Source of the DNA: a virus
IMG/VR virus record: IMGVR_UViG_3300025886_000202
Coordinates: 1-20,302 of that record
Strand: one strand, 5' to 3'
DNA: 20,302 nucleotides
Shown here piece by piece: positions 1 through 11,998 of this stretch. Position 1 is the stretch's first letter, and every line of letters starts with the position of its first letter. Under the pieces are notes generated by a model, which was not told the DNA's origin, did no database searches, and saw only the letters and a list, made by a program, of their open reading frames with translations. The translations under genes were made by a program, and so were the position numbers.

Positions 1-2463
1 GTTGTTTATTGTTGTCCAATCAGTATCCGTATCAAACGTGCCATTCGTCACCAACTCATTACCAACCAAGTCAGTGTCGTCGGTGTCAGACAGGAAGGCA
101 CCCTTGATGTCGCCGTTCATCCAGCCTGTGTTGTATGTGGAGGTGGTGTAGGCGACTTTTTCAGTGTCAAAAAAGGCTAGCCCGTTGATGCCGCCGTGCG
201 TGCCACCATCAAGACCCTTGCCATAATCACTCAATAGCTTCAAGTCAGAAGCATTAGTGGTGCTATTCAAGTATAAAACGGCAGAACCTTTGCTATACCC
301 ATTGCCTTCTGAAATATCAGTGCTTGGTAGGTCAAAAACATGAACGAACCTATTCCGTGTTGCGACCGCATCGTGGGAGACTACAATTTGATTGATGCCG
401 TTGAAAGCTATAATGCCACAGGCTCCATGGTTTGCCCAAGTAATATCATACACAGCACCACTGTCAGTAATAACACTCACGCCACCATCCGTTGCCACTG
501 CAATAGTAGGCACAGGAAGCCCAGTAGCTGCATCAATAGGGGCGTTGGGTAGCACGGTCATGGCGACGTCGTTGACCACGCCGTTTACCAAAGCAACCCC
601 TGCGTCAACAATAGCAACTACAGCATCGTGGTCGTTTCTCAAACTTACTGTAAGGCCAGCTCCTCTTACGCCCGCTACAGAATATCGCTGAACCGTATCT
701 TCAATAAACCGAGCAGCATAGACCCCTGTATAAGTTGTCCCAGACCCCTCAATTCCAAAGCAGAGAACACCATTTTGCATTACTACAGATGTGGCATTTC
801 GGCCCGTGCGCCATATCTCCACCCCAGAACCTACACCAGCATTAAACACCACCCACATCGGCAGACTTGGATCATCACCATCGTAGATCGTGACCTTAGT
901 AGTCTCAGCCACAATCACAGCAACCGCAGGGAACTCACGACGAGAACCACGAGTAGCAGTGTTCAAGGTCTCCTGATACCAGCTTGTGTGCTGGGTGCGC
1001 TTACGCCATGCACCACCGTCACTGTCCTTGCTGGTGTCATACACGAATACGTCTACGGCTGTGACGCCTTTAGTTTCAGCAATAACGTCCAAGTCATAGC
1101 CAGCAATGCCAGCGGCACTAGAGGCGGCAGCGGCGGCGCTTGTTGCAGCATTTGAGCTATATGTTAAGGCATTGGCCTCTGACGTATCAGCATTAGCCTC
1201 AGAGGTGCTTGCAGCAGATGCCGATGCAGCAGCTTCCCCAGCCTTAGTCGTAGCCGTCCCAGCGTCAGTCGATGCAGATGCAGCAGAGCTTGCAGCATTA
1301 GTTTCACTGGTAGCAGCGTTTGTTTCAGCGGTTTCAGCCGCAGTTTGCGCAGCTTCGGCAGCGGTCTGTGCTGTCTCAGCATTGGTCTCTGCGGTCTCAG
1401 CAGCAGCCTGCGCAGCAACACTAGCCACCTTAGATGTTTCACTAGCAGTGGCGCTGTTAGCACTATTGGTGGCGCTAGTAGCGGCATCATTCTTACTGGC
1501 TAAAGCAGATGCAGCATTCGCACTCGCATTCTGAATGTCAGTAATGTTTGTTGCGTTAGTATTGATCGATGCAATGTTTGTTGCGTTTGTATTTACATTA
1601 GCAATGTCTGTCGCAACAGTGTTCACGTTTGTAATAGATGTTGCCACGGTCCCAATGTCAGCACCGTCAGCAGCAACAGTATTAATATTAGACGCATTTC
1701 CAGCAACAGAAGTTACGTTGCCGCTGATACCAGAAACAGTTGTAACATCAGACGATATACCTGCGACAGTACCAATGTCAGATCCATCAGCCGCAACAGT
1801 CGTAACATCAGCGCTAATACCAGCAACCGTGGAGACGTTTCCAGATATGCCCGATACCGTTGTCACATCTGTGCGGATCGTATTGACGTTTGTAATAGCG
1901 TCAGTCGCAACCGTACCGTCCTGGATCTCTGCCAAAGTCTTAATGTCAGCAGAGATATTTGCTAGTGAATCGACATCAGCAATCTCTGGACCTGGCTCTG
2001 GATCACCCGTAGTAGCATTAAACCCAAGAACTGTACCTTTGCGATCATCCTTCAGGGGAAGCTCTAGGTCAGTAAACACATCACCAGGGTTCACAAACAA
2101 ACCACGCCCAAGTTTCTCATCGAGCTGTTGGGTCATAATCACGTTACTGTCTAGCTGTTCGTTTAAGCTAGAAGCCAGAAGATCCCCGGCTGTAACAAAG
2201 TCTGTAGTCCGTGAAAGCTCACGACCACCAATGATTGTAAGAACGTCAGATGCTATGAGGGCAACAGTTAGAGTGATAGATCCCGTTCCATTCGCGTTAA
2301 TACTGACCGTGTAATCAGTGGTAAGCGTTAGCTCCGTAGTCCCCTTGAAGACTGCGATATCACCATCGACCAAGATGTTGAAAGTAAAGGCATATGGACC
2401 GGTTCCGGTATTGCCTGTGAACTGAACCCGGCGGGTTACTGGATTGATTGCGATATCACTCAT
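1..2463 (-). CDS. Tail fibre protein, T7 gp17-like N terminus (partial, 3' end outside window)
   Basis: Adhesin that anchors to the tail and recognises the host surface. The frame is open for 821 codons from the ATG at 2463 and leaves the window without a stop. Residues 1-85 match the T7 tail-fibre N-terminal domain: a MSDIAINPVTRR start, FTFNILVDGD, then a short beta-rich module ending near LTIIGGREL. Residues 181-310 are a decapeptide repeat, and about 355-452 are an alanine-rich heptad repeat, both expected to form a trimeric shaft. From about 455 comes a globular part (VDVFVYDTSKDSDGGAWRKR, then IYDGDDPSLPMW) of a kind I know from marine phage fibres. The last visible residues (LVTNGTFDTDTDW) look like the start of a repeated carbohydrate-binding-type module. 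The AAAGGA upstream is 13 bases from the ATG, a long spacing. It is the last structural gene seen, as in T7. The receptor is unknown. Confidence 0.9.
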   Translation of the reverse strand, partial: MSDIAINPVTRRVQFTGNTGTGPYAFTFNILVDGDIAVFKGTTELTLTTDYTVSINANGTGSITLTVALIASDVLTIIGGRELSRTTDFVTAGDLLASSLNEQLDSNVIMTQQLDEKLGRGLFVNPGDVFTDLELPLKDDRKGTVLGFNATTGDPEPGPEIADVDSLANISADIKTLAEIQDGTVATDAITNVNTIRTDVTTVSGISGNVSTVAGISADVTTVAADGSDIGTVAGISSDVTTVSGISGNVTSVAGNASNINTVAADGADIGTVATSITNVNTVATDIANVNTNATNIASINTNATNITDIQNASANAASALASKNDAATSATNSANSATASETSKVASVAAQAAAETAETNAETAQTAAEAAQTAAETAETNAATSETNAASSAASASTDAGTATTKAGEAAASASAASTSEANADTSEANALTYSSNAATSAAAAASSAAGIAGYDLDVIAETKGVTAVDVFVYDTSKDSDGGAWRKRTQHTSWYQETLNTATRGSRREFPAVAVIVAETTKVTIYDGDDPSLPMWVVFNAGVGSGVEIWRTGRNATSVVMQNGVLCFGIEGSGTTYTGVYAARFIEDTVQRYSVAGVRGAGLTVSLRNDHDAVVAIVDAGVALVNGVVNDVAMTVLPNAPIDAATGLPVPTIAVATDGGVSVITDSGAVYDITWANHGACGIIAFNGINQIVVSHDAVATRNRFVHVFDLPSTDISEGNGYSKGSAVLYLNSTTNASDLKLLSDYGKGLDGGTHGGINGLAFFDTEKVAYTTSTYNTGWMNGDIKGAFLSDTDDTDLVGNELVTNGTFDTDTDWTTINN
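1108..1401 (-). repeat. Fourteen alanine-rich heptad repeats in the fibre shaft
   Basis: Residues 355-452 of the fibre divide into fourteen seven-residue units that each begin with Ala, such as AETAETN, AETAQTA, AATSETN, ADTSEAN and ALTYSSN. Low-complexity Ala/Ser/Thr/Glu heptads of this kind are common in phage fibre shafts and are expected to form a trimeric coiled coil. They link the decapeptide region to the globular distal part. Confidence 0.8.
1534..1923 (-). repeat. Thirteen in-phase decapeptide (30-base) repeats in the fibre shaft
   Basis: Residues 181-310 of the fibre fall into units of exactly ten residues with the pattern xTVAxxxxx(V/I), for example TTVSGISGNV, STVAGISADV and GTVAGISSDV. 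Hydrophobic residues sit at positions 3, 6 and 10, giving 3-4-3 spacing. At DNA level this is a diverged 30-base periodicity. It is a coding repeat in the trimeric shaft and not a CRISPR array. Confidence 0.85.
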
Positions 2464-2509: not shown

Positions 2510-4984
2510 TTACTCAAACACGTTTGACAGCTCTGGGGTTCTTTCGGGAAGGATGTCTCCCTGTGACCACCAGTATTTCTGACCGTATTGCGTTCTATAT
2601 TTGCTTGCGTTTCTACGCATCTTTGTGCGCGTATCAGAATCGACCCACAGTTTGCCCTGGTCAATAACCAATCTTTCAAGCCCAAGTCGTGCATACCATA
2701 AGCTAGATCCAGGGGTATATCGTCCGGCAAATCCTAGAAACTCACTAGCAGCATTACTGTCTTTACCTTGTGCGGCCTGTAGTATGTTGCCTACTGTTAG
2801 CTGAGAAACATCGTTTGCAAATCCTACTACGGGACCGGCAATGGTTTCAGCCAAACCGCCACCATACCTATTGACACTGCCAAACATAAAGTCGCCATAG
2901 ATACCGAGGCCACCACCCTGCATGAAAGCAGCGCCCCAAAACTCAGCGGTATTCATTGGCCGTGGGTCTCTACCCTTTGCCATTTCCTTTAGCTGCATCG
3001 CAAGAGCGCCCATAAGCGTTGTGCTTATCATTAGATCTGCAAAGTAAGCACCCTTCCCTCTGCCGGTAGGCTGGGCCAAGCCGCGCATGATGTGTGTATT
3101 TACCAGGGTAACACCAAAATTCTTATACATTGCAAAGGACCGTGTAAGCTCACCGGCTAATGTCCCAGGTTTGGCATCACCTGTGATCGCCACACGCCCA
3201 CGGAGAGAGCTACTAGGGACAGCAAAGTTAGTTTCTGTGTCAATCATTACAGATAGGTTTGTTGCTAAATCACGGGCCAGCTCTGGGTTTATATCGGTGC
3301 GAGCCTCGATGTCTTCAGCCCTTATGAACTTAGCCCCTTCGTAATCATACAAAGGCGTCTTCCGAATGATCTCCCACTTATCAGCCCCAATATTATAATG
3401 CTCCATGCTTTTCTGCATATTTGCAGGAAGATCCTTAAACTGTAAATTAACATTGTCAGCTAAGAATCCGAGGTACTCCATACCGAAAGACCATCTACCC
3501 GCCTGCGTCCACGGAGAAAGCAATGAAGCTCTCATAACAAAATCAGATATGCGCCTGGTAACTTCTGGCCCTGATATCTCCCCTACATACCGCATTTGCC
3601 CAGCAGCTAAGGTGGACCAGCCTTCAGCAGTAAGACCTAACCTAATTGCTGCGCGGCCCTTTTCCTCAAGAGAAAGCGGGTTCATAAACTCTAAATACTT
3701 TGAAATCATCTTAGTTTGGGGAAGGCCATTCATTGTCCTGGCTATCCGCCCAAAATTAGTATCGGTTATAGCGGCAATAGCTGCGCTACCAAGCTGGGCA
3801 GAGTGCAGAACATTCCTTGTGCCAGCCATAGTTGTCGCCAATACGCCGTCCACCGGTGCATTGTTTGTCCCTACCGTGGCTGAATACAGATCATCGAGAA
3901 ACGCATTTGCTTTTGATGCACTATTAATCTGCTTTGCGTCACCAGATAGACTGGCTTCCTTCGTAAGGGTGTCTTTCATAAATCGCAAAGTGGTCTTTGG
4001 ATCTGGACCCATCACCTCCATCAACGCAATGTCTCTGGACATATTATCGATATGGGCCATCATAACATCGAAAGCATTGGGATTTCCAAACGCCTCTTGG
4101 TACTTCATCCAGTTGTCAGCATCTTTAAATACAAGGAAGCGATGGTCCTGATGTCGTGAAGCAAAAGATTGATTGCCGGCAAAGCTCCCAGGTTTGTTTT
4201 TATTCTGACCGTTTGTCCGTATCGTTTCAAAAACATCCTCCAAAACAAGCTCAAGCTTTTGCTTAGAAAATGGCAGTCCCGTTTGCTCATCAATCATTTT
4301 ATTAACATCAAGCTTTGGAAGGATCGTATCTCGCCACGAAGTAAATCCAGCAGCAGCAACCGCAACAGAGTTATGGAATTGAGGCATACCCCAATCCTTG
4401 CGTTTCGGTATAGCACCACCAGCAGCGTTAAACCTTAACCTTAAATATTCAGCAGCTTCGGCCCAAGCTTCAGCCATTTGTCGCGCCGAAATATCATCGG
4501 TCGATCCTGGCTTGAATATCTCACTGATAACATTTTCTAACCTTGCCTTTTCCCGAGTCTCGCCAATAATGTTTCTTTTAAATGTTCCAAGAAACTGATC
4601 CATTTTTGCTGTGGCTCTGGATCGGACTGCGCTTTGCACCTGGGCGACACTGTTAAAACGAGATGTTACAGATTGCTCAAAAACATCAAACGTAGCTTTG
4701 TATTTATTTTGTTCGCCTGTAACAGCCGTTACGAATGTATCCATGTGCATTCGTATTTTTGTCCAGGTCTTAGCCTGTAACATTGCGCGGCGCTTCTTTT
4801 CCTTAGACATTTTCTTTATAGCCGCAGATGTATCTAAAGCAGCCTTAGAGCTGGCAGCAGCAAAACCCATTTGCTTGTTATACTGAACCTCAAGATCCCC
4901 AAAAAGGGTTTTGATCTCTTCAGCCTTTTCAGAAGAAAGCTCACCGGCAGCAACACCATCGTCAATACATTTTCTAAAACTCAT
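2510..4984 (-). CDS. Large internal virion protein, probable distal half of the gp16-type ejection protein
   Basis: An 824-residue protein whose ATG overlaps the stop of the preceding gene (ATGA, 4981-4984), so translation is probably coupled. It is mostly helical with many small residues. Residues 689-699 (QGGGLGIYGDF) and 758-772 (PGSSLWYARLGLERL), plus the C terminus at 791-824 (RNASKYRTQYGQKYWW, then ILPERTP), fit a C-terminal pattern I know from very large internal proteins of podoviruses and prophages. Residues about 655-675 are hydrophobic (STTLMGALAMQL). In T7 the cognate position is held by a single 1318-residue gp16, which leaves the head with the DNA and forms part of the channel through the envelope. 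Here that role seems shared with the 1305-residue neighbour. No enzymatic motif is visible. The family call is by context and C-terminal pattern. Confidence 0.65.
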   Translation of the reverse strand: MSFRKCIDDGVAAGELSSEKAEEIKTLFGDLEVQYNKQMGFAAASSKAALDTSAAIKKMSKEKKRRAMLQAKTWTKIRMHMDTFVTAVTGEQNKYKATFDVFEQSVTSRFNSVAQVQSAVRSRATAKMDQFLGTFKRNIIGETREKARLENVISEIFKPGSTDDISARQMAEAWAEAAEYLRLRFNAAGGAIPKRKDWGMPQFHNSVAVAAAGFTSWRDTILPKLDVNKMIDEQTGLPFSKQKLELVLEDVFETIRTNGQNKNKPGSFAGNQSFASRHQDHRFLVFKDADNWMKYQEAFGNPNAFDVMMAHIDNMSRDIALMEVMGPDPKTTLRFMKDTLTKEASLSGDAKQINSASKANAFLDDLYSATVGTNNAPVDGVLATTMAGTRNVLHSAQLGSAAIAAITDTNFGRIARTMNGLPQTKMISKYLEFMNPLSLEEKGRAAIRLGLTAEGWSTLAAGQMRYVGEISGPEVTRRISDFVMRASLLSPWTQAGRWSFGMEYLGFLADNVNLQFKDLPANMQKSMEHYNIGADKWEIIRKTPLYDYEGAKFIRAEDIEARTDINPELARDLATNLSVMIDTETNFAVPSSSLRGRVAITGDAKPGTLAGELTRSFAMYKNFGVTLVNTHIMRGLAQPTGRGKGAYFADLMISTTLMGALAMQLKEMAKGRDPRPMNTAEFWGAAFMQGGGLGIYGDFMFGSVNRYGGGLAETIAGPVVGFANDVSQLTVGNILQAAQGKDSNAASEFLGFAGRYTPGSSLWYARLGLERLVIDQGKLWVDSDTRTKMRRNASKYRTQYGQKYWWSQGDILPERTPELSNVFE

Positions 4985-7900
4985 ATCGTACAGAACTCCA
5001 ACCGTTTCATTACAGCGTCTTCTTCATCCATCATGGCACGAAGGTCTTTTATAGGCATTGAAACAGCCTCAAGCTCATTAGTATCTGGATTGAGCCTTTG
5101 ACCTACAGGAACTTCAAGATCCATATTGACATTTGCCGAAGCGATATCTAAATTGGAATCGGAGGTATCATCCATGAAATTATTTAGGTTCGACTTCGGC
5201 TCTATTGCAGCCATCGAAGGTCCACTTGGCATGATCTGGGATACAGAGGACGGTTGGTCTCCTGTAGGTGGTTCCAAGGAACTAGCTCGCGCTGTAGTAA
5301 CAGACGAAGGCTCTGAAGAAATCCCAGAGGACAAAGTTGAGTCTACACTGCTGGCGCGTGGCGCTCCTATCCCAAGCTTTTGAGCAAATGATTGGTCTAG
5401 CGTAGACGTAACAGCCCCATAGATCTCTATCATTTTTTGATTAGCGTCTGCTATTTCAACATCAGTTGAGTCTACACTTCTTAATATTTCATAGTAATCG
5501 TGACCAGATTTTTCAAAAAGTGTTGGATTTTCTTTTGCGTTGAGCATTCCAGGAGGCCAGATTTGAATTTCTCCTAATGACTTATCATCAAAGATAACCA
5601 TTATTTTTCTGTCAACGTATCCAGCCGGAGTAATTTTCCATCCCTCATCTACAAGATGAAATTTCTTAGACATGGCTTTAACAAAAGCGTCTGCCTCTTC
5701 TATAGTTGCTGCATTGATGCCAGTTCTGGCCGCATCAGTTAATCTGTTATATTTTCCGTTGTATTTGTCTCTAACTTTTTCTTCTATTCGTTTGAGTTTT
5801 TTGACCTTTGCTGGTTCAAATTCGATCCCCAAATCAGCAGCAGCTTGAGCCGCTGCTTTGTTCAGAGTTTCGTTGTTCTTTTTGGCTTTGCGGAATAACC
5901 CTAAACCCGTCTTAAACCTTTGACGTTCCAATAGTTTTTGAACAAAAATGTCAGCCTCATCTTGCCCAAGAGTCTCTGCAACGACATAGCGCATTTTATT
6001 TTTACCAAGCGCGTCTTGGTTTAGAATGCGATCTGCCGCTTTGCGAGATAACTCAGAAGCGTACTGAGCATCATCAATTATTTTGCCAGGCACTTCAGAC
6101 CAGCCTGCAGCTTTTGCAATTGAGTATGTAGAATTGCCATCTCGAACTGAGAAAGTTCCGTCACCATTATCTCTAAGAAGTAATGACCCGCGTTTTGGTA
6201 TTTCATTGTTTGCAGATTGAACCATGTAGCCAAGAGAGTTTACAACCCCTTTAGCCCTTACATTGACCGGAACAATGTCTTTCATAGCAACAAGAGTGTC
6301 GCCAGCTTCCATAGCCATATATGGTTGCCAATCTGGCTGGATCTTATCTTGCACCTCCTGAAGCGCGGATTGCATTTCAAGATCTGCCTGCGCCACCGCT
6401 GCTGGTGGCGTATCCACCTCATCAGCACCAAACATATCCGTTATAAGCTGACCGGTCTGTTGATCCGAGGCTGGCCCTGTAGGCTCATCAAATCCGTCTA
6501 GGATTGGCTCTTCAATTGAAGGTCGCGTGACCTCCGCTGTACCATCGATGCCGCGTCCAATGTCGCCAGCAGATATGCTTTGGAAATCGCCTGCGTCAAT
6601 TGATCGTCTGACAGCATCAAGGAATCCGTTTGTGGCTGGGCCATAGCTTCCTGTGTCCCTTGCTGTCTTTGCTGCATCATTGAGGGCGTCCGAGAGCGGC
6701 CCTTTGCGGTTTGCAAGCGCTTGGAGGAGCGTGATCGTTTGGGCATCTGTAGCCGCCTTTCTTTGATTTGCATCAGCCGCAAGGATGTTTCCTTCAGCCT
6801 CTAACCTTTCAGCGTTTCTTACAAGTGTTTCAAACGCAGCTTTATCTCTGCGCAACTCTTTATAAGCTCTGTCCAGAATTTTACCACGCTCGAAATAATA
6901 ACTCTCTGTCATTAGCTCTTCGCCAAACAAAGATATTTGAGTTACTTGCTCCGAAGGGGTTTCTTTTACCTGGCGAACTATAGCCTCAGCTTGGAATTTG
7001 TTTTCTGGGTTAGCTTTGGCAAGCACACTCATTGCTGCGTCTTGCAAGTCCTGATCGTCAATTAACCTACCTACAAATGCCGCATACTTAGCCGGTACAA
7101 CCCCGTTTACAACCATGCCAAATGAATTGTCACTTAAAGGCATTATGCCTCTAGCTTGCTGCACAAGCTCTGAATTTGGTGGCAAATCTGGAAGCCTAGA
7201 AGGATCTACACGCAAGACCTTTGCAGCATCAATTGCTGTACCGCTTCCCTCTACTATGTTTTTCAAAGCAGCGACCACGCGCATTTCTTCTGGCGTGATA
7301 CCGTCTACTTCTCTAAATGTGTATGCGTGTAGACTGATATCCTGAGACGGATCTTGAGCCATAATACGTTTAGCTAGTCCAAGGCGTTGGTGTCCATCTG
7401 CAATAACCTTTCGACCATCTGCATATTCATAAACACTAACAGTGCCAGCCCAATATGGGTTGAATGTCTGGACCCCTTGCAATCTTGCAGTAACGCCAAA
7501 CTCATCACCCTCTGCTTTGAATTGGAATGTTTCTGCATCAACGCCAATCTCAGAAGCCTTCACCATAGATATAAGGTTTACACCTTCAAGATTATTAACA
7601 TCCGCTACAACAGGGGAAGTCTTAGCCGCCTGTTTTTGTTTGTCTAAAATCTTTCCACGCTGTTTGCCTAGTCCATCTTGTATAGATTGTAACTCCTCAA
7701 CTTTAGACTGATTTAGTTTATTTTCAGATATTATATCTTTTATTATCTTACTGTCCTTTGTAAGACTTGGATCAGCATCATAAGCATCATTTAACCGATT
7801 TTGAATTTCAAGACCTTCTGCTTCAGCCGTTTTTAATTTGGCATTGTTTGCTTCCCATTTTTTATCCAATGCGTTTAATTCATCTCGTAATGGATCAACA

Positions 7901-8898
7901 GATTTTAAAGGCAATGGAGCATCTGGAGACATAGCCGGTGGCTGTGCATTGGCCGCAGCAGCACCAGCTTCAACTAACCTTTGGTTATGAACGTATTGAG
8001 CTTCATTAGGTGTGGCTGATTGAAGTGGGTTTTCTATCTCTTCAAACTCTTCAGCTTCTAATAGTGCCGCAGCCATTTCACGATTTTCTAATGTGCCGCG
8101 CTGGTTGTTGCCAGTTAGAGCTAAGTACCCTCTCCTTAATTGATTAGCTGTTAGTTTTACGCCAGCACCAGCAAGGGGGAGAGCTGCACCCAAGGCAGCG
8201 TTTTCAGAAACATTACGCACAAAGTCAGAAAACTCATAATCAACGTCAAGCTCATCATACCATTCTTTAACTGCAATCTCAGAAAAAGCACCAGCTCCAC
8301 CATTTAAAACAGCAGAGTTAAATAGTTGCCGCCACATGGTTCTGCCAATGGCAACAGCGCCCTCCAGCATCATAGCTTGCTGAGTAACTGGATCGCTAAA
8401 TGATGCAACCATGCCACCTAAGAATCTAGCAACAGCATATTTAAACTCAGGATTATCATCGGCAAGTCTTTGCATCTCTGCGCGAGATCTTGTAAATAAT
8501 TCCTTAGTTTGGTTTTGAATAAAATTTTCATTTACCTGGTTTAAATCAGGCGGTAGATCATATTGGTTCTGCCTGATGGTAGAGAAGATCTTTTCAATCG
8601 CATTATTGTAAGCCGTTTCAGACTTATACTGTCCAGTAGTCGGCGCAGATATTAGATATCGAGCAGGGTTAGTCCATCTCTCGCCGTTATTTAGAAACTC
8701 AGTTTCATTAAGCGATTCAATTATAGGATCCCAAACTTCTTGCTTGGCAAAAGCAGGGGAATTAGCGCCAGCACTGTCATTTATAAAACCTAAGTCCTTA
8801 GTCTTTACAAAATTCTCAGCCCATGTAGCAGCAGGAGCTGACATCTTCCTTCTTGGGTCAGAATTTAAAAACTTTATATCTGCTTTTCCAAGGTTCAT
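4981..8898 (-). CDS. Giant internal virion protein (gp16 position) with ParB-like and RelA/SpoT-like domains
   Basis: A 1305-residue protein, ATGA-overlapped at both ends with the gp15-like gene and the 824-residue gene, so it belongs to the ejection-protein set. Residues 1-260 form a helical N-terminal region with Gly/Ala-rich stretches (VASFSDPV, ALPLAGAGV). Residues about 330-425 are predicted coiled coil by composition. Residues about 445-575 look like a ParB/DdrB-type domain: GVQTFNPYW, then KVIADGHQRLGLAKR (497-511), then NIVEGSGTAIDAAKVLR (547-563). A helical segment follows at about 660-765. Residues about 1035-1145 carry RelA/SpoT-like signatures: RLTDAARTG, GYVD, GEIQIWPPGM and GHDYYEILRS. 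Residues 1180-1240 are a Ser/Pro-rich linker. No lytic transglycosylase motif is visible, unlike T7 gp16. Internal virion protein status is inferred from gene order. Domain calls are by motif and could be degenerate folds. Confidence 0.75.
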   Translation of the reverse strand: MNLGKADIKFLNSDPRRKMSAPAATWAENFVKTKDLGFINDSAGANSPAFAKQEVWDPIIESLNETEFLNNGERWTNPARYLISAPTTGQYKSETAYNNAIEKIFSTIRQNQYDLPPDLNQVNENFIQNQTKELFTRSRAEMQRLADDNPEFKYAVARFLGGMVASFSDPVTQQAMMLEGAVAIGRTMWRQLFNSAVLNGGAGAFSEIAVKEWYDELDVDYEFSDFVRNVSENAALGAALPLAGAGVKLTANQLRRGYLALTGNNQRGTLENREMAAALLEAEEFEEIENPLQSATPNEAQYVHNQRLVEAGAAAANAQPPAMSPDAPLPLKSVDPLRDELNALDKKWEANNAKLKTAEAEGLEIQNRLNDAYDADPSLTKDSKIIKDIISENKLNQSKVEELQSIQDGLGKQRGKILDKQKQAAKTSPVVADVNNLEGVNLISMVKASEIGVDAETFQFKAEGDEFGVTARLQGVQTFNPYWAGTVSVYEYADGRKVIADGHQRLGLAKRIMAQDPSQDISLHAYTFREVDGITPEEMRVVAALKNIVEGSGTAIDAAKVLRVDPSRLPDLPPNSELVQQARGIMPLSDNSFGMVVNGVVPAKYAAFVGRLIDDQDLQDAAMSVLAKANPENKFQAEAIVRQVKETPSEQVTQISLFGEELMTESYYFERGKILDRAYKELRRDKAAFETLVRNAERLEAEGNILAADANQRKAATDAQTITLLQALANRKGPLSDALNDAAKTARDTGSYGPATNGFLDAVRRSIDAGDFQSISAGDIGRGIDGTAEVTRPSIEEPILDGFDEPTGPASDQQTGQLITDMFGADEVDTPPAAVAQADLEMQSALQEVQDKIQPDWQPYMAMEAGDTLVAMKDIVPVNVRAKGVVNSLGYMVQSANNEIPKRGSLLLRDNGDGTFSVRDGNSTYSIAKAAGWSEVPGKIIDDAQYASELSRKAADRILNQDALGKNKMRYVVAETLGQDEADIFVQKLLERQRFKTGLGLFRKAKKNNETLNKAAAQAAADLGIEFEPAKVKKLKRIEEKVRDKYNGKYNRLTDAARTGINAATIEEADAFVKAMSKKFHLVDEGWKITPAGYVDRKIMVIFDDKSLGEIQIWPPGMLNAKENPTLFEKSGHDYYEILRSVDSTDVEIADANQKMIEIYGAVTSTLDQSFAQKLGIGAPRASSVDSTLSSGISSEPSSVTTARASSLEPPTGDQPSSVSQIMPSGPSMAAIEPKSNLNNFMDDTSDSNLDIASANVNMDLEVPVGQRLNPDTNELEAVSMPIKDLRAMMDEEDAVMKRLEFCTI

Positions 8899-11534
8899 TT
8901 AAAATCTTTCTCCACAGTCCTTAGCTCTTCCACGGAAACTTTTTCTGAATCAAACGCACGTTTAATAAAGGCGCTAAGGTATTTGTGTTCGGTTGTTCCC
9001 GGATCAAATTGTTCCCGTACCTCAATTAATCTAGTTTGGATCGCCTCTCTTTCATCAAGCTCACTTACAGCCGCAGCACCAGCAGCCGGGGCTTCAGATA
9101 CAGCTTCAGCAACGTCTGATACGGTTTCTGCAAGAGATGTTGTCGCAGATACGATAGTCGATGGTATTACACCGATGCCTGGGGCAGCCATTTTCTCCAG
9201 CAATGTTTCTGGAATAATTCCTTGACCCACATCCTTCTGAGCATCAAACGCATCTTTCTGATCCTGCGTATAATAAACCGGACCACGGGCGGCAGTAAGT
9301 TCAATTACCTTTTTTAGGTCAAAAACAAACATGTCCCCATTGTCATCGTTAATGAAGTCACCACTGTCTTTATACATAAATCCGTAGTTGTTACCTCCCA
9401 AAGAGACAAGATTGTAATCTCCAGAAGTACCCTCGCTTTTTATTACCTGATATATTTTAGCTCCAGGATCAACTAGAGACAACTCGATCTCACCTGACAA
9501 AGCCTCAAACATCTCAGGAGCTACATTTTGATAAACGATCTCCCCATCTACCTCAAATCCCGAGGCTTGCGAAAGTATATCTGCGTCCATTTCTGTCAAA
9601 GCATTTGACACATCAAGAGCAGTATTCCCGCTAGGAATAAGGGTTGAAACAGACCTTACTGTATCGATACCACCCGTTCCATTCTCAGGATTAAATCCAA
9701 CAGCCTGGTTTAAAGAATTTCTCCAAAGTTCTTCATTGAACTCAGTAGCGCCTTCCGCATAAAAAGCATACAGATTTTCAGCCATTGCTCTGTAAGCCGG
9801 TACAGCATCCAGGGTTTCACCGAATACAGATCTAAAGACCGCATTTGAAATTGAATCTGCGTCCGGCATATCCTTGTCTGATGTCAGCTTAGGCTTACCC
9901 ATTGCCTCAATAATAGCTTGGCCCTGTAGCGCACGGGTGGCAACATCTCTGTTTCCAGAAACCATTGAAGCCCCTACGGCAGCATAAAACGCTCCATCTG
10001 TACCGGCCAGCTCTTCAAAGGCTTGAAGCGCGATAGTATCCCCACTGGCAACAACAGATTCCAAAGCAATCAACCTATCGTTTATAGACGCAGATTTAAG
10101 AACATTAGAGAACAATTTGGTTTCCTCTTTAGTAAATAAAGTAAGAGGTGTCCCATATGCTTTAGAGACTAGCTTCGCCTGGTCAAACCTTAAACTAAGA
10201 TCTGCGACCACAGCATTTGGATCTTGGTTAAAGTCAATTGGCTTAATTTGGATTAAGTTATTATTATCATCGGTAAGTTGCCTTTTAACAGCAGCGGAAA
10301 TCGGATTGTCGTTTATGTCTTTATTAAACTGATCCAACATTTTAACAGCAAAATCATACGTTTTGACTTCTACATCCGTGTCCCGACCAGGCTCACCAAC
10401 GCCAGGAAGACCAGCTTCCATTGAGGTAACAAAACTAGCTAAATCAGCAGGCATCATGGCTTTGAGATTATTAGCAGTATCAATATCAAAAATCATGCGC
10501 TCATAAGCAGCTCTTGCTCTATCGCCTTCTGGCCCAAAAGCATCAAGTTGAGCTTCTATCTGTGTTAGCATTTTCTGAGAAACGACACCCCCAGCAATAG
10601 CAATATCATCTTGCTCACTAATCAATGAAACAACATTTGAAACTTTTTGCTCTCTAATCGCTGCGTTTTTGCTGTATGTTCCCTGGAGGCTTTTTCTAAA
10701 AGATTGCGTTTCTGCTAAAGTCATACCGGGGGCCGGAACTGTCTCCATTCTTTTTAAGATTGTTTCTTGCTTTTCAACCGGAGAAGAATTGAAATTAAAT
10801 ATGTAGTTTTCTTTTATAGCGTCATTGTAAGCTTTAGTTTCAAAAGCTTTGAGCTGTTTTTCCGAAAGTGATAAGCCGCCTAAAAGCTCAACAGATTTAG
10901 CAATTTGTTGTTTGATCGTTACAGCGTTTGAACCTGGAAGGATCGCGTTCTCGATAATATTGTTATATTGCAGATCCGCCGCGTTAGCTGCCTTCACCTT
11001 TTGCTTTTGAGCTTGTACGTTTACATACCAATTTGAATATCTTTCTGTTGCCTTGGCTGTTACGCCGTTTAGGTTTTCTCTCAAAACGGTTGCAGCAGTC
11101 GGATCAATTACTCTCAGCGATTCTGAGTAACCGTCAGTAAGTTCTAATAGTTGTGCTTGAACTTTCGTAAATGGAGTTTCATCCCTTTCGGCTTCATTCA
11201 AAATCCGCATTGTTTCAATTTCAGCGGTATTTTGTATTTCGGCTACAGCAACACGACTTCCAAGTGCATATGCTGCACGTTCTGCTATTGTAGTAGGTCC
11301 ACCGGCTTCATCTAATGCGGCCAGGGTAGGCAAAGCACCTTCTTCGCGCACACGCTCCTGCCCACGGATTTCCGCTGCCTGAGAAGCCTGCCTGAAAGCA
11401 AAGTCGGACATACGATCAACTTGCTGAGAAATAGTCTGGCCCAACCTTGCCTGTTCGCGCGTAGCGGCAAAATCCATCTGCTGTGGTTGACGGGTCTGTA
11501 GACCGGTGCGCTGATATCTTGGAAGGATTGCCAT
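8895..11534 (-). CDS. Internal virion protein, gp15-like
   Basis: An 879-residue, largely helical protein; T7 gp15 is 747 residues. In T7, gp15 joins gp14 and gp16 in the internal core and is ejected to build the periplasmic part of the DNA channel. The N terminus (MAILPRYQRTGLQ, then Gln/Arg/Ala-rich helices such as QARLGQTISQQVDR) and long charged helices are typical of this class. Residues 788-830 form an Ala/Ser/Glu-rich linker (SLAETVSDVAEAVSEAPAAG) before a final helical piece. I see no catalytic motif. The start lies 8 bases after the stop of the gp14-like gene, with AGGTTAGAAC before the ATG. The end overlaps the next ATG by four bases. The assignment rests on position, length and composition, because gp15 sequences diverge strongly. 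Confidence 0.7.
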   Translation of the reverse strand: MAILPRYQRTGLQTRQPQQMDFAATREQARLGQTISQQVDRMSDFAFRQASQAAEIRGQERVREEGALPTLAALDEAGGPTTIAERAAYALGSRVAVAEIQNTAEIETMRILNEAERDETPFTKVQAQLLELTDGYSESLRVIDPTAATVLRENLNGVTAKATERYSNWYVNVQAQKQKVKAANAADLQYNNIIENAILPGSNAVTIKQQIAKSVELLGGLSLSEKQLKAFETKAYNDAIKENYIFNFNSSPVEKQETILKRMETVPAPGMTLAETQSFRKSLQGTYSKNAAIREQKVSNVVSLISEQDDIAIAGGVVSQKMLTQIEAQLDAFGPEGDRARAAYERMIFDIDTANNLKAMMPADLASFVTSMEAGLPGVGEPGRDTDVEVKTYDFAVKMLDQFNKDINDNPISAAVKRQLTDDNNNLIQIKPIDFNQDPNAVVADLSLRFDQAKLVSKAYGTPLTLFTKEETKLFSNVLKSASINDRLIALESVVASGDTIALQAFEELAGTDGAFYAAVGASMVSGNRDVATRALQGQAIIEAMGKPKLTSDKDMPDADSISNAVFRSVFGETLDAVPAYRAMAENLYAFYAEGATEFNEELWRNSLNQAVGFNPENGTGGIDTVRSVSTLIPSGNTALDVSNALTEMDADILSQASGFEVDGEIVYQNVAPEMFEALSGEIELSLVDPGAKIYQVIKSEGTSGDYNLVSLGGNNYGFMYKDSGDFINDDNGDMFVFDLKKVIELTAARGPVYYTQDQKDAFDAQKDVGQGIIPETLLEKMAAPGIGVIPSTIVSATTSLAETVSDVAEAVSEAPAAGAAAVSELDEREAIQTRLIEVREQFDPGTTEHKYLSAFIKRAFDSEKVSVEELRTVEKDFK

Positions 11535-11542
11535 GTTCTAAC

Positions 11543-11998
11543 CTATGCTAATTGTCCGTACCGATATGCACCTTGGCCGAGAGTACCGGCGGCGGATACA
11601 TAAGAAGATAACTGCGCTGTGCGACCAGCGGATTGATAAATTGCGGCCTGAGTGCTTGCCTGGCCGAGAGCCATAATAGCGTTGTCTTGAGCAATTTGTT
11701 TCTCTCTAGCGCCCTCAGACAAAGCAAACATCTGCATGGTTGCCGCCGATCCAGATGTAGGATCAACACCACCGGCAGCAGATCGAGATATAACTGCAGC
11801 AAGCGTTTCATTTAGATTGCGCAAAGCATCAGCCCCCTGCTGCTTATAGGCAATGGCCTCAGAACGGCCACGAAGCTCTGCTTGCTCTGCTTGCATTTGG
11901 TATTGACGCTTTTGAGCAGCCCCCGCAGAAATTTGACCAAGAGCTGAAACTCCTGCTGAAAATAACTGGAAACCACCCGTTGCCATTAAACCAGACAT
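11543..11998 (-). CDS. Internal virion protein B, gp14-like
   Basis: A 151-residue protein, shorter than T7 gp14 (196). In T7, gp14 is ejected first and forms the pore in the outer membrane. The N terminus has a Gly/Ala-rich hydrophobic stretch (GGFQLFSAGVSALGQISAG), followed by a Gln/Ala/Arg helical middle (QKRQYQMQAEQAELRGRSEA). A motif common in this family follows near residue 72 (RSAAGGVDPTSGSA), and a second hydrophobic segment lies near the C terminus (SSYVSAAGTLGQGAY). This layout fits other podovirus gp14-type proteins. The ATG follows the tail tubular B stop by one base, and GGGGAATTGAT serves as ribosome binding site inside the end of that gene. Confidence 0.8.
   Translation of the reverse strand: MSGLMATGGFQLFSAGVSALGQISAGAAQKRQYQMQAEQAELRGRSEAIAYKQQGADALRNLNETLAAVISRSAAGGVDPTSGSAATMQMFALSEGAREKQIAQDNAIMALGQASTQAAIYQSAGRTAQLSSYVSAAGTLGQGAYRYGQLA

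Follow-up and report, generated by a model that had tools for sequence, protein, structure and literature searches.

The window, by which we mean the whole 20,302-base stretch of DNA analysed here, a virus record from a short-tailed marine phage, carries a T7-type structural block on its minus strand. The block comprises a portal gene (Pfam Head-tail_con, E 1.2e-98), a scaffold gene (Pfam Phage_T7_Capsid, E 1.9e-15), a capsid gene, gp11- and gp12-type tail protein genes and a gp14-position gene (11543..11998; 151 aa; phrog_418 internal virion protein), and continues with a gp15-position gene (8895..11534; 879 aa; phrog_992 head protein, 1.8e-17). Two large genes follow, here called P1 and P2, and then a T7-type tail fibre gene (1..2463) whose 3′ end is cut by the window. 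P1 (4981..8898, minus strand) encodes a polyvalent-type protein of 1305 aa at the ejection-protein position, identified by its open frame and a trunk profile match. P2 (2510..4984, minus strand) encodes an 824-aa protein whose open frame and family profile assign it to phrog_684, ‘virion structural protein’, as a relative of epsilon15 gp17. The reading frames bear out an initial annotation made from the sequence, which had placed two ATGA-joined genes of 1305 and 824 residues at the gp16 position: P1 and P2 overlap by four bases at 4981–4984, and the gp15-position gene and P1 overlap at 8895–8898. Fibre genes downstream of near-identical P2 genes vary in length, from 847 aa in locus L007 to 1477 aa in L010.

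The order of domains in P1 is a helical part, an optional coiled coil, a ParB region, a variable slot and a tail. Residues 1–290 (8029..8898) form the helical N-terminal part, constant across the family by alignment and model. The coiled-coil hairpin at residues ~332–430 (7609..7905), which the trunk model (pLDDT 81.9, pTM 0.47) places at ~336–426, is an optional insert absent from L007, L009, L010 and L054; L007 lacks it although the comparable P1 sequence is nearly identical. Residues 440–650 (6949..7581) have a ParB fold with an N domain and a helix-turn-helix domain, supported by alignment and by VIA comparison. On the model, VIA located this fold at 442–648 with moderate values for PadC (Z 9.1, 97 aligned residues, 3.0 Å), ParB 7bm8 (Z 9.1, 93 residues, 2.5 Å) and Spo0J 4umk (Z 9.0, 92 residues, 3.6 Å); unrelated coiled coils that headed the VIA list for the trunk were disregarded. 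Within the ParB region, the motif D501-G-H-Q-R505 is invariant in 39 aligned sequences. The helical region, coiled coil, ParB-like domain and RelA-like domain that the initial annotation had read in this gene are all present, the last as a RelA-like fold at residues 996–1174.

Beyond the ParB region lie a conserved stretch of trunk (residues 651–842; 6373..6948; by alignment), the payload slot (~843–1244; 5167..6372) and a constant C-terminal tail (1245–1305; 4984..5166). Cys1303 in the tail is the only invariant column in an alignment of 29 cassettes. A cysteine occurs within the last 12 residues in 145 of 146 P1 relatives, the exception being L208, where it lies 15 residues from the end; as a control, 85 of 1181 other frames of at least 300 aa have a cysteine in their last 12 residues. 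The tail resembles an element for docking or packaging.

Two further features of the trunk were seen in particular relatives. The trunk match stops near residue 350 in L208, L230, L231, L232, L207, L209, L213, L219, L222, L233, L234 and L221, a group in which the N-terminal part is followed by cargo and tail without a ParB region, so that the ParB region is itself a module. When L120 is compared with L188, the gp15-position gene at its end and P1 over residues 1–300 diverge jointly to ~43–65% DNA identity, between gp15 sequence of 85–100% and a 95% stretch at residue 301, as if the end of one gene and the start of the next had been exchanged as an interacting unit.

The pairing of P1 with P2 is widely retained. 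Our locus set came from scans of virus contigs and genomes, included a group of 38 loci with bacterial genome contigs among them, and drew on the best 80 matches of each of two virus scans with alignments. In these virus contigs and genomes, 234 P2 frames have a complete start; a P1-trunk gene lies directly upstream of 216 of them, another frame upstream of seven, and no frame upstream of 11. Three of the seven (L170, L224 and L006, the last being the window itself) are P1 genes cut by the locus end, and are counted as truncated P1 because their tails show it. From 164 non-redundant full-length P1 relatives we excluded 18 without P2 next to them (for example, L002 and L003); the remaining 146 lie directly before P2, and because so many non-redundant relatives keep the arrangement it does not reflect chance. 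The P1–P2 gene pair is the norm for this phage group, and a lack of conservation beside gp15/gp16-position genes, which the initial annotation had named as the outcome counting against its view, was not found.

P2 matches phrog_684 over its full length (E 1.7e-175, residues 12–821), and its relatives include gp17 of epsilon15 and phiV10 and proteins of Vibrio phages VP2 and VP5 and of pelagiphages, several of which are annotated as structural or internal virion proteins. The C-terminal motifs that had first drawn attention to P2 are family-conserved, appearing as ‘PGxSLWYxRL’ and ‘GQxYWW’ in a 23-sequence consensus. Direct Pfam searches of P1 and P2 gave no significant family, including no lytic transglycosylase domain in either protein, and the P2 and P1 trunk profiles had no credible match among solved structures.

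T7 has a single gp16, of 1318 aa as the initial annotation had said, which lies between gp15 and gp17. One explanation of the locus is that a T7-type gp16 was split into P1 and P2, and that the slot content took the place of its N-terminal enzymatic domain in this lineage. The shared position, the cell-wall hydrolases found in the slot of some relatives, and a weak colinear match of P2 107–792 to gp16 552–1305 (hhalign against 22 gp16 sequences; probability 15%, E 0.0017) are consistent with this explanation. Against it, the homology is not significant: the P1 trunk matched nothing in gp16, neither the P1 trunk nor P2 had a significant match to single T7 sequences, and no T7 record appeared at E 0.01 among the P2 matches listed. 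A fused form, for which the initial annotation had proposed a search, does exist, yet it is a single case among 249 P2 frames: L250, from an Alphaproteobacteria MAG, has a frame of 2812 aa with the trunk at 8–749, a long middle part containing an ART-PolyVal domain, and P2 at 1935–2801. Because this form is so rare, it could equally well be derived or ancestral. We consider a split gp16 improbable. The polyvalent-type P1 of the initial annotation is supported, and its site is conserved; common descent of P2 with T7 gp16 is possible, but homology is not supported as stated, and P1 has no transglycosylase by Pfam. It had also left open whether one large ancestor was split or a cargo protein was added next to the channel-forming part; the second option fits better, since P1 and P2 are distinct families, nearly every locus keeps them apart, and the cargo is mobile on its own. 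A comparable change is seen among some members of the T7 gp16 family: in L297, L298, L301, L308, L310, L319 and L320 the match starts only at gp16 residue 144–159 and the frames open with a different N-terminus, RG(V/I)RNNN..GNI, which indicates that the N-terminal enzyme region of gp16 has been replaced there too.

The initial annotation saw neither exchange in the slot nor the optional nature of the coiled coil, which are the main point here. The comparison of domain content across related phages that it had suggested reveals the RelA-like part as one of several alternative slot contents. P1 relatives can be aligned over the N-terminal part and the ParB region, and again over the final ~60 residues, but not between ParB and tail, and L054, which has no cargo at all, sets the slot limits at ~843–1244. 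We classified the contents with profiles seeded from groups formed by eye, and called a slot empty when fewer than 135 residues followed the trunk profile and no cargo profile matched. On this basis the 146 non-redundant P1 proteins comprise 63 with Rel-type cargo (19, 26, 10 and 8 in four groups), 38 with zeta-type cargo, 27 with an empty slot and 18 with other contents, although a few ‘other’ rows of 149–200 residues may be nearly empty as well. The RelB label of L103 is based on 21 residues, and the RelC group is joined to the other Rel groups only via cross-matches of these profiles. The length of sequence after the trunk is bimodal in the 146 relatives.

Pfam searches of 29 cassettes (the window and 28 other occupied slots) identified Zeta_toxin in nine, with E-values down to 4.4e-34, and RelA_SpoT in four; the pattern G-x4-G-K-[ST] occurs in 38 of 40 zeta-labelled sequences. 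A Pfam search of ten further contents gave GH108 (one), Phage_lysozyme2 (two), PBECR1 (two), LPD23 (two), GNAT (two, one alongside a lysozyme) and ART-PolyVal (one), and no match for that of L208. The cell-wall hydrolases GH108 and Phage_lysozyme2 fill the slot in more distant relatives, and theirs is an ejection-type function. In the cassettes of L032, L066 and L125, an extra stretch resembling a GNAT acetyltransferase precedes the second ParB-like domain, a label given by eye and without a Pfam match for L032.

The clearest evidence for exchange comes from close pairs. L008 carries Rel-type and L062 zeta-type cargo; their N-terminal parts are 98% identical, their ParB regions 96% and their P2 proteins identical at 820 of 820 residues, whereas the cargoes are unrelated. 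DNA identity between these two loci is mostly 87–99% in P1, falls to 37–52% at the slot and returns to 93–100%. Sharp drops to ~37–52% at the slot, with flanks mostly above 80% and often at 95–100%, were seen in four pairs: L062/L008, L089/L092, L010/L009 and the window with L010. The ParB part of the window is 98–99% identical to that of L009 or L010, against 24–32% for the cargo. The reverse pattern also occurs, with L010 and L008 sharing 82% identity in the cargo but 69% in ParB, 68% in P2 and 38% in the N-terminal part. L008 and L098 have ~12 kb in common, within which there are just two differences: the cargo, with 944 versus 977 bases, and the coiled coil, with 297 versus 21 bases.

Content changed at least 39 times on a tree of 134 P2 proteins scored for four states, compared with 57–74 changes in 300 label shuffles; without the ‘other’ rows, there were at least 30 changes among 116 rows, and shuffles gave 43–57. 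The tree came from a quick, short search and has several long branches, so its deep joins are unsure while its close pairs are not. Since the changes are fewer than in the shuffles, content is also inherited by descent over short times, yet it is often replaced. Assembly artefacts are argued against by prophages in named Aureimonas genomes, where the slot is occupied in L259 and L274 (PBECR1) and empty in L273, and by the agreement of L008 and L060, which come from different metagenomes and have the same Rel type. We conclude that this conserved protein of the ejection position has a single site at which defined enzyme domains are exchanged. It is conceivable that the slot holds neutral or decaying inserts without function, tolerated in a flexible linker, and the 27 empty slots of 146 and the unconstrained length would suit such inserts; this is very improbable given the small number of enzyme classes, represented by 39 divergent Rel and 40 zeta sequences with intact active-site-like residues.

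The window's own slot holds two predicted domains. Residues ~864–942 (6073..6309), corresponding to residues 20–98 of the cargo model, resemble a second ParB/sulfiredoxin-like domain (VIA Z 7–9; Noc E 0.002). Residues ~996–1174 (5377..5913) resemble Tas1 and small alarmone synthetases by both profile and model. A profile of 39 Rel-type cassettes matched Tas1 (6ox6) at 9.3e-24, with SaSAS next at 6e-06. The AlphaFold2 model of the cargo (pLDDT 90.0, pTM 0.83) found Tas1 as its best Foldseek match (5.1e-07), and Tas1 was also the best VIA row (Z 13.8, 169 aligned residues, 3.3 Å), tied with other small alarmone synthetases at 12.8–13.4. The modelled cargo has the alarmone-synthetase fold, closest to the type VI toxin Tas1. 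PADLOC and NCBIfam searches of the window domains gave nothing useful, and a direct search of phage records with the window Rel domain gave no match.

Residues K1033, K1041, D1055, R1058, D1096, E1110, G1132 and Y1136 are invariant in all 39 Rel-type sequences, and the conserved basic, D..R and E positions of Tas1/Apk-type synthetases are present in 39 of 39. The acceptor motif has been described as S-x-H in guanosine and G-x-N in adenosine alarmone synthetases (PMC12226406). The window domain instead reads G-Y-V-D-R-K, with D-R-K where syn3 would be, and because this matches neither motif the acceptor, and hence the product, cannot be predicted. Such enzymes are reported to work at ~100,000 per minute (PMC12691689), and the T7 virion holds ~3 copies of gp16 according to its sequence-record note; given this rate and copy number it is plausible, by analogy, that a few injected copies of the window enzyme would matter.

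An active toxin expressed late should harm the producing cell, and the P1 layout resembles that of polymorphic toxins without their linked immunity. P1 and P2 are spaced by −34 to +9 bases in 142 of 146 pairs, which leaves no room for an immunity gene between them in those pairs, and no cargo-linked gene emerged from the ~12 kb comparison of L008 and L098. The abutting genes and the identity of these two loci together indicate that there is no linked immunity gene, a conclusion limited for the window by the partial sequence of its own phage. Among candidate antidotes elsewhere on the contigs, the alarmone-degrading MazG was found in 0 of 33, and an HD_4 hydrolase in two of 33, below the curated cut-off. 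When that hydrolase was itself the query, a (p)ppApp-hydrolase-like gene was found in three of 124 contigs (L032, L066 and L235); all three have Rel cargo, but so do 58 of the 124, and the link is not significant. In L032 and L066 the hydrolase gene lies well over 10 kb from P1. The small HD proteins on these two contigs (L324:1538-2014 and L325:1491-1967), which carry Tas1-like cargo, have the (p)ppApp hydrolase 7smg as nearest solved relative (3.8e-27) and are 43% identical to pneumococcal prophage phosphohydrolases. With no linked immunity, the slot domains might be only weakly active, become active only on delivery, or be something other than toxins.

If they are not toxins, they could be enzymes of early takeover or counter-defence, a short alarmone burst or a kinase retuning the host or blocking a defence, such as one that detects infection, with contents that vary with host defences. 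Frequent exchange between very close phages fits such an arms race, and alarmone synthesis by polyvalent proteins has been suggested to alter host transcription and translation (Iyer et al., PMC5512222). We regard this as possible but unlikely, as no specific defence target was identified and the 27 empty slots of 146 mark the domain as dispensable. Still less probable is that the slot domains strike rivals or the neighbours of a lysogen in the manner of MuF toxins, serving bacterial competition in temperate members. The enzyme classes are those of MuF toxins (PMC12226406), eight of 33 contigs carry an integrase, and copies occur in bacterial genome contigs among the group of 38 loci; on the other side stand the 25 of 33 contigs without an integrase, many of them fragments, and the missing linked immunity gene.

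The reading that we favour, with a probability of roughly 0.6, is that P1 is an internal-core carrier bringing an exchangeable enzyme into the host by ejection, with P2 as its structural partner. Judged by gene position only, P1 and P2 would belong, as ejection proteins, to the internal core of a T7-type podovirus. P1 may be fixed in the core through its helical N-terminus and cysteine-ended tail, its ParB-type domain probably holding or sliding on DNA and its slot bearing the enzyme, with P2 as the putative channel-side structural partner. On infection, P1 would exit the head together with the core proteins, and the enzyme would reach the host cytoplasm. The enzyme of the window, a predicted Tas1-like synthetase, could within minutes convert ATP to pyrophosphorylated nucleotides, or modify another acceptor, and its product might disable the host or halt a competing response. 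Sister phages would bring a zeta-type kinase instead, or nothing, and the slot would be replaced through recombination in its conserved flanks.

In its wider form, to which we give about even odds, our preferred reading describes a polymorphic payload system in the DNA-ejection machine of short-tailed phages, with a constant carrier and docking tail, swapped host-disabling enzymes and no cognate immunity protein. Its payloads would be the Tas1-like alarmone synthetase, zeta-type kinases, RNase-like domains and cell-wall hydrolases. If true, the ejectosome would deliver proteins in modular fashion, much as a contractile injection system does, and the size and mosaicism of some ejection-region proteins would be explained. 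Natural isogenic pairs with a different or empty slot would then allow direct measurement of what an injected enzyme does to infection. The system would further reveal where, among marine phages, the alarmone-synthetase toxins of type VI secretion circulate.

Like the polyvalent proteins, P1 combines several effector-type domains in one polypeptide and is encoded beside virion structural genes, and ParB, RelA/SpoT, zeta-type kinase, PBECR, ART and lysozyme domains are all catalogued for them (Iyer et al. 2017, PMC5512222). The same account states that polyvalent proteins do not follow the layout of polymorphic toxins; P1, unlike the proteins described there, has one slot between constant ends, swapped between near-identical phages. 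T7 gp16 shares with P1 and P2 the position after gp15 and before the fibre, but is one protein with a transglycosylase (PMC8954989). Epsilon15 and phiV10 have the same gene order in gp15-gp16-gp17, where gp17 is the P2 relative; the 600-aa gp16 counterpart of phiV10, however, has no match to the P1 trunk (hhalign probability 1.8%) and only a weak one to the P1 tail (E 0.042). Functional domain swapping among ejection proteins has been reported, for example lysozyme activity on K1E gp15-like proteins (PMC8954989). In searches of open-licence literature we recognised no paper that describes a slot for toxin-type domains in proteins at the ejection position, so that while the enzyme types and domain swapping in ejection proteins are known, an exchangeable slot of this type there appears to be new.

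The type VI effector Tas1/Apk1 (PDB 6ox6) is the closest solved relative of the window cargo in sequence and predicted fold, but the window carrier is a phage structural-type protein and its acceptor motif is different. The nearest delivery concept is that of the MuF polymorphic toxins, including Apk2, in which a carrier associated with the phage head likewise bears a variable toxic domain that can be an alarmone synthetase (PMC12226406); zeta-type kinases are fused to MuF as well (PMC5512222). P1 matched no Pfam MuF model at E 1 and differs from these toxins in having no adjacent immunity genes and in holding its cargo internally, followed by a constant tail.
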